In this document: positions 37,637 through 41,103 of the stretch, in pieces
Layout: every line of letters starts with the position of its first letter
How positions within the stretch are numbered: the first letter of the stretch is position 1
Source of the DNA: Halanaeroarchaeum sp. HSR-CO
GTDB taxonomy: Archaea > Halobacteriota > Halobacteria > Halobacteriales > Halobacteriaceae
Length of the DNA: 64,000 nt
NCBI RefSeq assembly: GCF_024972755.1
Contig: NZ_CP087724.1
Coordinates: 2,294,001-2,358,000 of the forward strand
Direction of reading: 5' to 3'
The notes under the pieces: generated by a model
The model's database searches: none
What the model was told of the DNA's origin: nothing
Seen by the model: the letters and a program-made list of their open reading frames with translations, nothing else
Translations under genes and position numbers: made by a program

Positions 37637-38047
37637 TCAGTGCTCGTAGCCGTCTTCGGTGACCGCGACGGTCTCGTAGCCGAGATCGGCGATGCCCTCG
37701 ACGATCGCGTCGTGGTCGTCGGTCGCCTTCCAGTAGAAGACCAGATCGAAGTGACCGTCCCGCAGGAGTTGCTGGCACTCCCAGACGAACTCGTCGTCCG
37801 CCAGTCGGCGACCCTGGAACTGGCTGGCGGCGAACCGAGGGTCGTCCTCGCCGGCGTAGACGTAGGTGTCCTCCTCCGCGACGTTCGCGGCGATGGCCTC
37901 GCCGATCTGGCGGGTGGCCTCGCTCATGGCCGGTTCGTCGGACTGGGGGATGTCCGTGTGGACGACCGCGCCGTGGAGCGCGACCTCACCCGGTTCGAGC
38001 AGCGCTACCGCTTCCTCGTAGAGATCCGCGTTGGCCGCATCGGTCAT
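37637..38047 (-). CDS. Small acidic haloarchaeal protein (DUF5778-like)
   Basis: 136 residues from ATG 38047. Cytoplasmic and acidic; notable stretches are ALHGAVVHTDIPQSDEPAMS, ASQFQGRRLADDEFVWECQ and FDLVFYWKATDDHDAIVEGI. I associate this gene with the uppS region of haloarchaea, where a protein called DUF5778 is found, but that name is from memory. Divergent from uppS across 99 nt. Function unknown. Confidence 0.75.
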   Translation of the reverse strand: MTDAANADLYEEAVALLEPGEVALHGAVVHTDIPQSDEPAMSEATRQIGEAIAANVAEEDTYVYAGEDDPRFAASQFQGRRLADDEFVWECQQLLRDGHFDLVFYWKATDDHDAIVEGIADLGYETVAVTEDGYEH

Positions 38048-38146: not shown

Positions 38147-39055
38147 ATGCGGCAGTGGCTTCGAGCCCAGTTCAGGTCCGTCTACGAGCGGGTCCTCCGA
38201 TACGAGATCACCGGCGCGCCCTCCCACGTCGCCGTCATCCAGGACGGCAACCGTCGGTACGCACGAAACCGGGGGAGCGACGCCACCGATGGTCACCGTG
38301 CCGGCGCACAGACCACCGAACGAGTCCTCGACTGGTGTTCGGAACTCGGCGTCGACGAACTCACGCTGTACGCCTTCTCGACGGAGAACTTCGAACGGCC
38401 ACGAGTAGAGCGCGAACACCTCTTCGACCTGCTCGAGGAGAAACTCTACGAGTTCGCGGACGCCGACCGGGTCCACGAGGACGGTGTGCGGGTCCGGGCC
38501 ATCGGCGACACCGAGCGACTCCCCGACCGAGTCCAGGAGGCGGTCGAATACGCGGAGCACCGGACCGGGGACTACGACGCGTTCACCCTCAACGTCGCCC
38601 TCGCGTACGGCGGCCGGACCGAACTCCTCGGTGCGACGCGTGAGGTCGCCGCCGCCGTCGAACGGGGCGACCTCGACCCCGGAGACGTGACCGCTGCGAC
38701 CGTCGAGGATCGGCTGTACGACGGGGCCGTCCGCGACGTGGACCTCATCGTCCGGACCGGGGGCGACGAGCGGACGAGCAACTTCCTGCCCTGGCACGCC
38801 AACGGCAACGAGGCCGCAGCGTTCTTCTGTACCCCCTACTGGCCGGAGTTCTCGAAGATCGACTTCCTCCGCGCCATCCGCACCTACGAGGCGCGCGAGG
38901 CGTCCTGGCGGCAGACTCGCGCGAAACGAGCCCTGGCGCTCGTCCGGGCGCTCGGGGGCGAGGTCAAGGAGGCACGAAGAGTCCTCGACCGGCTTCGCGA
39001 GCACCTGCCGGAATCCATCGAGGACGAAGGGATGGACGAACGACCGGTGGACTGA
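38147..39055 (+). CDS. uppS: cis-Prenyltransferase, catalytic-type (UppS family)
   Basis: 302 residues. It elongates allylic diphosphates with cis-isoprene units to make the lipid carrier (dolichyl/undecaprenyl-type) for glycosylation. The substrate motif is intact: HVAVIQDGNRRYARNRG with catalytic Asp33, Asn35, Arg36, Arg37; ELTLYAFSTENFERP follows. The C-terminal motif VRTGGDERTSNFLPWHANGN (202-221) keeps Arg203, Arg209 and Ser211, but the canonical WQxxYxELYF and the terminal RxG are replaced (WHANGNEAAAFF, then EAREASWRQTR), with a 50-residue extension. Convergent, 18 nt from a second homologue. Confidence 0.93.
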   Translation: MRQWLRAQFRSVYERVLRYEITGAPSHVAVIQDGNRRYARNRGSDATDGHRAGAQTTERVLDWCSELGVDELTLYAFSTENFERPRVEREHLFDLLEEKLYEFADADRVHEDGVRVRAIGDTERLPDRVQEAVEYAEHRTGDYDAFTLNVALAYGGRTELLGATREVAAAVERGDLDPGDVTAATVEDRLYDGAVRDVDLIVRTGGDERTSNFLPWHANGNEAAAFFCTPYWPEFSKIDFLRAIRTYEAREASWRQTRAKRALALVRALGGEVKEARRVLDRLREHLPESIEDEGMDERPVD

Positions 39056-39073
39056 CGACCCGCTTTCCCGTGC

Positions 39074-39682
39074 CTATCGACCGAACCGCCGCTGTCGATT
39101 CTCGAACGCCTGGACCGCCCGGATGAAATCCCGTTCGCGGAAGTCCCGCCAGTTGACGTCGGTGAAGTAGAGTTCGGAGTACACCGACTGCCAGATCATG
39201 AAATCCGAGAGGCGCTCCTCCCCGGTCTTGATGACGAGGTCGGGTTCCTCGGGGAAGACCAGTCGTTGCTCTATCTCCGTTTCGTCGACGTCGTCCGCAT
39301 TCAGTGCGCCCGCCTCGACGTCCTCGGCGATGCGGCGGACCGCCATGGCGAACTCGTGTTTGCCGCCCAGACCGAGACTGATCTGGATCGGTTCGGTCGC
39401 GGGTTCGGTATCGGACGGCCTGCGGATGGCGACCGGTCGCGGGAAGGACAACCGGCCGAGTTCCCGTTCGAGGGTGTCGACGACCGCCTCGTCGAGGACG
39501 CTGACGTAGATGGTGACCCGCCCGGCGCCGTACTCGAACGACCAGGAGACGAACCGTTCCAGCGTCTCGTAGGCTCCCTGTTCGAGGAGGTCGCGTTCGG
39601 TGATGACCAGGGCGACGTGCGACGGTGGGTCTCCTGGCGTGCGACGGAGGCGGAGGGCGAGGTAGCGTTCGTACAGTCCCAC
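39074..39682 (-). CDS. cis-Prenyltransferase homologue lacking the catalytic Asp (NgBR-like)
   Basis: 202 residues with GTG at 39682, fixed by CGTTTTAGG at 39707-39715, 29 nt upstream. The block that should read HVAxIMDGNxRW is HVALVITERDLLE (22-34), so the catalytic Asp, Asn and Arg are gone. The C-terminal half is very canonical: VIKTGEERLSDFMIWQSVYS (150-169), ELYFTDVNWRDFRERDF and a final R199-F200-G201-R202, i.e. the RxG element near the C-terminus. This pattern matches regulatory subunits such as NgBR/Nus1. Probable partner of UppS at 38147-39055. Confidence 0.88.
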   Translation of the reverse strand: MGLYERYLALRLRRTPGDPPSHVALVITERDLLEQGAYETLERFVSWSFEYGAGRVTIYVSVLDEAVVDTLERELGRLSFPRPVAIRRPSDTEPATEPIQISLGLGGKHEFAMAVRRIAEDVEAGALNADDVDETEIEQRLVFPEEPDLVIKTGEERLSDFMIWQSVYSELYFTDVNWRDFRERDFIRAVQAFENRQRRFGR

Positions 39683-39764: not shown

Positions 39765-39769
39765 TTAAG
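39765..39769 (+). promoter_or_regulatory. TATA-like box of the DUF92 gene
   Basis: TTAAG, 29 nt before GTG 39796; it argues against the in-frame GTG at 39769. Confidence 0.55.
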
Positions 39770-39795
39770 TGCCGTACGGCGAAAGGCGTCGGTAC

Positions 39796-41103
39796 GTGAC
39801 TCGTCCGTTACGCCGAACAGCGGCGTTCTCCCTCGTCTCGCTGCTGTCACTCGCGTCCGGGGTGCTCGAGGAGTACACAGCGGTGCCGTTCGTCGCCGTT
39901 GCCATCGGCGCTTCGCTCGTCTCGAAGGGGAAACTCTTCGACGCGTTCGCCACACACCGGGACCGCGCCGAGGACACGCTGTACACGCTCATCGCCTTCA
40001 GTCTCACCGGCGCCGGACTCGCGCTGTTGCTCCCGACGTTCGACCTTCCCGTCACGGTGTTCGTCGCGACGATGCTCACCGTGGGCTTCGGCGACCTGGG
40101 GCGGCGGGCCGTCCTGGAGGTGCGCCAATCGGCCGTCGCCGGCGTCGCCGGTTTCGTGATCCTCGGGGGGACCGCCGCCTTCGCGGGCCAGGTCGCCATC
40201 AGCACCATCCTCGGGGTATTCTCGACGAGTGCCTTTCCCGAGTTCCTCTTCGTCGCCTCGAGTGCCGCGCTGCTCGGGGCGCTCCTGCGCTCGATGTTCA
40301 CCCGCCGCGACGACCCCCTCGTGCTCGTGATCATCGCGCTCTCGCTCTGGCTGTTCGCCGACCTCACCGTCGCAGTGGGCTGGGAGCGGATCGTCGTCGC
40401 GATGGCCATCGCCGTCGTGTTCGGCTACCTCTCCTACGCCCTCGAGACGGCCTCCATCCCGGGGATGCTCACCGGCGTGTTCCTGGCGCTGCTCGCCGTC
40501 GTCCTCGGCGGCTACGGCTGGTTCGCGGTCCTCATCGCCTTCTTCGCCATCGGCGGACTGGCGACGAAGTACCGCTACGAGGAGAAACTCGAGCGGGGCG
40601 TCGCCGAACCCAACGAGGGAGCGCGGGGGACCGGAAACGTGCTCGGGAACTCGCTGGCCGCACTCGTCGCGCTCCTCCTGTTCGCGGCGCACGCCCGCCT
40701 ACCCCTGCCGGGAGCGGCGTTCGCACTCGCGTTCACCGGTAGCGTCGCCACCGCTCTCGCCGACACCTTGTCCAGCGAGATCGGTGGGCTCTACGATAAA
40801 CCGCGTCTCGTGACGACCCTGCGACGGGTCGAACCGGGCACCGACGGCGCCATCACCTGGCAGGGTGAACTCGCCGGCCTCGCGGGAGCGGCGGTCATCG
40901 CCGCCATGACCATCTGGCTGTTCGACTACCCACCGGCGTTCGGCCTCGTGGTGATCGCGGCCGGGTTCGTGGGCATGACGGCCGACAGCGTCGTCGGCGC
41001 CACCATCGAGGGGTCCGTCGTCGGGAATCAGGCGGTGAACTTCATCGCCACGAGCGTCGGTGGCATCGCTGGTGGCCTCTTCTACCTGCTCGCGTTCGCC
41101 TGA
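39796..41103 (+). CDS. DUF92-family membrane protein (phytyl-phosphate-kinase-like)
   Basis: 435 residues from GTG 39796, about ten hydrophobic segments. The DUF92 signature is in the C-terminal third: TGSVATALADTLSSEIGGLY, LAGLAGAAVIAAM and FVGMTADSVVGATIEG. Plant VTE6 (phytyl-phosphate kinase) belongs to this family. Lying beside two cis-prenyltransferase homologues, it may phosphorylate an isoprenyl phosphate in lipid-carrier or prenol salvage; that is inference. Divergent from the NgBR-like gene, with the two TATA-like boxes about 50 nt apart. Confidence 0.85.
   Translation: MTRPLRRTAAFSLVSLLSLASGVLEEYTAVPFVAVAIGASLVSKGKLFDAFATHRDRAEDTLYTLIAFSLTGAGLALLLPTFDLPVTVFVATMLTVGFGDLGRRAVLEVRQSAVAGVAGFVILGGTAAFAGQVAISTILGVFSTSAFPEFLFVASSAALLGALLRSMFTRRDDPLVLVIIALSLWLFADLTVAVGWERIVVAMAIAVVFGYLSYALETASIPGMLTGVFLALLAVVLGGYGWFAVLIAFFAIGGLATKYRYEEKLERGVAEPNEGARGTGNVLGNSLAALVALLLFAAHARLPLPGAAFALAFTGSVATALADTLSSEIGGLYDKPRLVTTLRRVEPGTDGAITWQGELAGLAGAAVIAAMTIWLFDYPPAFGLVVIAAGFVGMTADSVVGATIEGSVVGNQAVNFIATSVGGIAGGLFYLLAFA

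Follow-up and report, generated by a model that had tools for sequence, protein, structure and literature searches.

A complementary pair of haloarchaeal cis-prenyltransferase homologues as a probable DHDDS/NgBR-like heteromer

The locus analysed here raises the question of why a haloarchaeon should encode two cis-prenyltransferase homologues side by side, each of which lacks a part of the active site that is retained in the other. In the window, i.e., the whole 64,000-nucleotide stretch of Halanaeroarchaeum sp. HSR-CO DNA that was analysed, gene A (positions 38147–39055, plus strand; ATG at 38147, stop at 39055) encodes a DHDDS-like cis-prenyltransferase homologue of 302 residues, and gene B (39074–39682, minus strand; GTG at 39682, stop at 39074) an NgBR/Nus1-like homologue of 202 residues. 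The genes are convergent with 18 nt between the two stop codons (39056–39073), which confirms the pair of reading frames and the coordinates proposed in an earlier note on this DNA. Both proteins belong to PF01255, scoring 232.6 bits (A) and 97.5 bits (B) at a cut-off of 27, and they are the only PF01255 genes in the whole genome. The DUF92 gene claimed as a neighbour is also present, divergent from B (39769–41103, plus strand; PF01940, E = 1.5e-56).

Protein A aligns with PF01255 over its full length (profile positions 1–216, E = 5.2e-69), and the top Foldseek match of its AlphaFold2 model (pLDDT 79.6) is DHDDS (6z1n_A, E = 8.8e-21). Its catalytic motif, D33-G-N-R-R37 (38243–38257, plus strand), corresponds to D26–R30 in E. 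coli UppS and D34–R38 in human DHDDS, and contains the Asp33, Asn35, Arg36 and Arg37 that had been picked out from the sequence. To place these residues in context, 99 A and 97 B sequences, taken from most of the haloarchaeal genera covered and widely from across the phylum, were aligned with E. coli UppS and human DHDDS. Each of the five motif residues is found in 99/99 A sequences, which are also identical throughout at the positions of E. coli D26, G27, N28, R30, S71, E73, N74, R77, R194, R200 and S202; at E. coli position 29 every A has an arginine, like DHDDS. A C-terminal RxG, said in the earlier note to be lost from A, is present in none of the 99. The same note had the WQxxYxELYF element lost as well. 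The tyrosine is indeed gone, with glycine at the E. coli Tyr211 position in 92/99 A sequences, but the element is replaced rather than simply lost: SNFLPWHANGNEAAAFF (38777–38827, plus strand), a variant of the UppS FLxWQxxYxELYF element, is about two residues longer than WQxxYxELYF, and retains the Trp and one Glu. NGNE is conserved in 68 of the 70 named haloarchaeal A sequences. Seven of these 70 are without DGNRR; six are truncated by the end of the locus, and the seventh (L183) appears to have a frameshift close to its start.

Protein B matches PF01255 at profile positions 117–219 only (E = 1e-27), since the N-terminal half is degenerate and reduced in length. Both of the features that had been noticed at its two ends are there. 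The counterpart of HVAIIMDGNR is the degenerate HVALVITERD (39590–39619, minus strand), where the catalytic Asp is changed to Thr, and the C-terminus is R-F-G-R (39077–39088, minus strand), an RxG followed by one residue. The UppS-type element is retained as WQSVYSELYF (39164–39193, minus strand), and the Tyr211 and Glu213 positions are kept in 97/97 B sequences. The catalytic Asp column holds an Asp in 7/97 B sequences, together with the Asn in 1/97. At the positions of E. coli R39, H43, R77 and E81, almost every one of the 97 has an alignment gap. The tail, on the other hand, is R-x-G in 96/97 B sequences and K-F-G in the remaining one, the Gly being the penultimate residue without exception, and RxG is found in 80/80 named haloarchaeal B sequences. 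The C-terminal half is the most strongly conserved part of the protein. The AlphaFold2 model of B (pLDDT 85.1) has a cis-prenyltransferase fold, and Foldseek matches both models to cis-prenyltransferases. A decaying pseudogene was considered as an identity for B and rejected, given the conserved C-terminal half and its occurrence in 290 of 292 haloarchaeal genomes. Very short, divergent B proteins of 164–168 residues, still ending in RFGR or RFGA, are seen in two genomes of family f20 (L129 in G309 and L131 in G300), which also hold a type A protein of about 240–260 residues.

The division of labour between A and B is thus near-absolute, as the earlier note had suggested from the single pair: A keeps an intact active site and has no RxG (99/99), and B keeps the RxG and has lost the catalytic motif, including the Asp in 90/97. 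Bacterial UppS, a homodimer, has the same fold, with catalytic residues as in A and the FLxWQxxYxELYF element and RxG as in B, but has both the catalytic block and RxG on a single chain, whereas they are split over two chains in the haloarchaeal pair. Both proteins are cis-prenyltransferase homologues, and some Methanosarcinaceae have a further, independent MM_0014-type enzyme, so one might think of A and B as two independent enzymes with different products. The D26A change is the classical way of inactivating E. coli UppS, and B lacks not only this Asp in most sequences but also, in nearly all, the Asn/Arg block and the substrate-binding segment. Two independent synthases are therefore very improbable, and this candidate was rejected. 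A further reading would make A a self-sufficient homodimer, with an inactive paralogue, B, serving only for its regulation or stability; A does span the whole of PF01255 with all catalytic residues in place, and its copies outnumber those of B in some genomes. A regulatory paralogue would, however, not be expected to retain the very active-site tail that is lost from the other protein, and RxG is missing from all 99 A sequences and kept by B at a constant spacing from the C-terminus. B is also at least as conserved as A (mean identity within haloarchaea 70% vs 66%), and we consider the homodimer unlikely. The assignment that we prefer, and hold to be very probable from the sequences, is that A and B are subunits of one obligate heteromeric cis-prenyltransferase, which makes the precursor of a dolichol-type sugar carrier.

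The closest parallel is human DHDDS/NgBR (in yeast, Rer2 or Srt1 with Nus1), where a catalytic subunit without RxG is likewise combined with an inactive subunit that ends in R-x-G plus one residue. Of the human NgBR, human DHDDS and E. coli UppS reference sequences used in the comparison, NgBR matched solved chains over residues 73–293, and UppS matched an alignment. When compared with all solved structures, the A profile finds human DHDDS best (E = 1.6e-73; E. coli UppS, E = 3.4e-69), and DGNRR is common to human DHDDS and A. The B profile matches human NUS1/NgBR over the entire cis-prenyltransferase domain, up to the final residue (E = 1.4e-11; 185 columns in hhalign, E = 5.2e-12), and NgBR scores higher with this profile than with that of A, which covers just 95 residues in the C-terminal half of NgBR. 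NgBR has HMGLVITEVE where B has HVALVITERD, and LVITE is common to NgBR and haloarchaeal B; the human C-terminus, RLGK, is an RxG followed by one residue, as in B. NgBR is absent from the best 50 Foldseek matches of the B model, which are cis-prenyltransferases generally. In the human complex, the C-terminus of NgBR crosses to the active site of DHDDS, where G292 helps to bind IPP and the carboxylate of K293 touches R37 and R85 of DHDDS; the product is C85–100 (PMC7573591). The equivalents of these two arginines in the window, R36 and R84, are invariant in A. The tail of B therefore has the fixed length that an NgBR-like mechanism predicts.

NgBR is also described as having membrane and receptor roles in animals, and B opens with a predicted helix (residues 3–14 of the model), so B might partner A mainly as a membrane anchor or as a receptor for other proteins instead of donating RxG. 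We regard this as highly improbable, because the membrane region of NgBR is located in an N-terminal extension that is missing from B; the latter has 202 residues, its homology to NgBR starts at NgBR residue 95, and the N-terminal membrane segment typical of the NgBR/Nus1 family is not found in it. The conservation of B is moreover strongest in its C-terminal half, the half with the RxG tail.

Whether the haloarchaeal and eukaryotic pairs have a common origin is a separate matter. A tree built from 70 sequences places A and B apart (support 95/83), with each tracking taxonomy, and the MM_0014 type clusters with E. coli UppS. B and NgBR make up one side of a branch with support 97/44, but NgBR is strongly diverged and its branch is very long (4.65), so that shared ancestry of the two is no more than a possibility. 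A single clade of A and DHDDS was not recovered in this tree, and was not rejected either (p-AU 0.226). We tentatively suggest that archaeal B and eukaryotic NgBR/Nus1 might descend from one ancestral RxG-donor subunit, in which case DHDDS/NgBR would be an archaeal inheritance and not an independent eukaryotic invention by parallel loss. The trees of A and B mirror one another (r = 0.94), an agreement that we set aside as evidence of interaction because vertical inheritance gives the same result.

The two types are near-universal companions in haloarchaea. The earlier note had held that frequent genomes with a single type would speak against a heteromer, and the check came out in favour of the pairing: among 292 haloarchaeal genomes from 76 genera, A (scored by the best PF01255 match) is found in 291 and B (scored by the B profile at E 1e-30 or better) in 290, and one genome per genus gives the same distribution. 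The exceptions are G072, a draft in 120 contigs without A; G218, with a divergent B-like match of 39 bits; and G236, with a B fragment adjoining A. These look like a draft gap, a divergent copy and a broken copy, respectively. Additional copies of A occur without added B, with three A and one B in G226 (L234, L244 and L251) and two A and one B in G068, G105, G148 and G149, so the gene ratio of A to B is not always 1:1. G195 (L236, L243 and L253) has two A and two B, and its additional pair sits on the same strand. Another genome holds, besides its A/B pair, a third, divergent full-length PF01255 match of 103 bits (L248; G002:C1:478925-479599).

The arrangement of the genes is conserved as well. 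For the comparison of gene order, 57 loci were fetched, one per genus, from genera in which A and B are nearby, and A and B are convergent in all 58 genomes formed by these loci and the window, with 0–8035 nt from stop to stop. In about 12 other genera, the two genes are distant or on separate contigs. Together with the same-strand pair in G195, this means that convergent adjacency is common but not obligatory. In the named haloarchaeal set, i.e., the best 80 loci from a scan of genome contigs, all of them haloarchaeal, the prevailing order is DnaG–DUF92–B–A, with DUF92 beside the pair in 73 loci and DnaG in 65. A small conserved open reading frame upstream of A, starting MTDAANADLYEEAVALLEPGEV (37637–38047, minus strand), is found in 50 of these best 80 loci. 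For DUF92, a role in carrier-lipid phosphate metabolism can be guessed at.

The pair extends beyond the haloarchaea. A B match is present in 194 of 197 other Halobacteriota genomes, and the three without it (G298, G307 and G316) all belong to one family, f18. G298 and G307 were searched with PF01255 and gave no cis-prenyltransferase match at all, so that both subunits are missing jointly from these two; the three assemblies are at 86–91%, and absence through incompleteness is possible. Each of the remaining 65 genomes in this search of 67 has at least two PF01255 matches. Both subunits are accordingly encoded in the same genomes in the phylum as in the haloarchaea, and many of these lineages likewise have the two genes convergent at short distance, e.g., in G312, G347, G367, G383 and G438.

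The heteromer in Methanosarcina mazei that the earlier note had mentioned is borne out by a passage of PMC8131916 (citing Emi et al. 2019), according to which the remaining paralogues of this species, MM_0618 and MM_1083, form a heteromer with C45–50 products. Among the genomes analysed here, G413 has three cis-prenyltransferases, one A, one B and one MM_0014-like. The third enzyme is close to the M. acetivorans-type 7vq9 and to M. mazei MM_0014 (7caq), and G413 is hence Methanosarcina or a near relative. Since the three enzymes of G413 are thereby an MM_0014-like enzyme, an A and a B, and MM_0618 and MM_1083 are the paralogues that remain in M. mazei, the pair in the window corresponds to the demonstrated heteromer, and A/B is, by elimination and not by name, the Halobacteriota-wide counterpart of MM_0618/MM_1083. 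The Methanosarcina-like pair L115/L114 falls within the A and B groups of the tree, and the M. mazei heteromer, from the same phylum, likewise combines one catalytic-type with one RxG-type subunit. In the Methanosarcina-like genome, about 0.6 Mb separates the two genes, whereas those of the window are convergent and separated by 18 nt, and the M. mazei heteromer is known from biochemistry, the haloarchaeal pair from sequence.

In the mechanism that we propose, A would bind the allylic diphosphate, Mg2+ and IPP, and perform the chemistry with D33, N35, R36, R37, S78, N81, R84, R203, R209 and S211. Lacking an RxG tail, A would have an active site that it cannot complete by itself. B, with the same fold but without the catalytic motif, would pair with A and be needed for its activity, and the Arg-Phe-Gly-Arg tail would pass across the interface as that of NgBR does. 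The Arg and Gly of the tail would organise IPP/Mg2+, and the terminal carboxylate would reach R36 and R84 of A. The product would be a long-chain polyprenyl diphosphate, the precursor of the haloarchaeal dolichol-type carrier; both this length and a use in N-glycosylation are predicted on the basis of haloarchaeal dolichol phosphate.

Haloarchaea, chiefly Haloferax volcanii, provide the best-studied archaeal N-glycosylation on dolichol phosphate, and a heteromeric cis-prenyltransferase of Archaeoglobus fulgidus was reportedly described around 2022 as a second archaeal heteromer. In the open-access papers searched, we found no report of a haloarchaeal heteromeric cis-prenyltransferase, and none that assigns two subunits to the haloarchaeal enzyme that synthesises the carrier. 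The heteromeric kind is already known from human and M. mazei, and the haloarchaeal pair would be a new, class-wide and near-universal case of it. Annotating A and B as separate undecaprenyl diphosphate synthases would be wrong because B is without the catalytic residue and A is without the RxG tail. The A/B pair would offer a genetically tractable model of human DHDDS/NgBR, minus the membrane extension of NgBR, and with A and B spread through the whole phylum, one can ask whether eukaryotes owe their heteromer to archaea.
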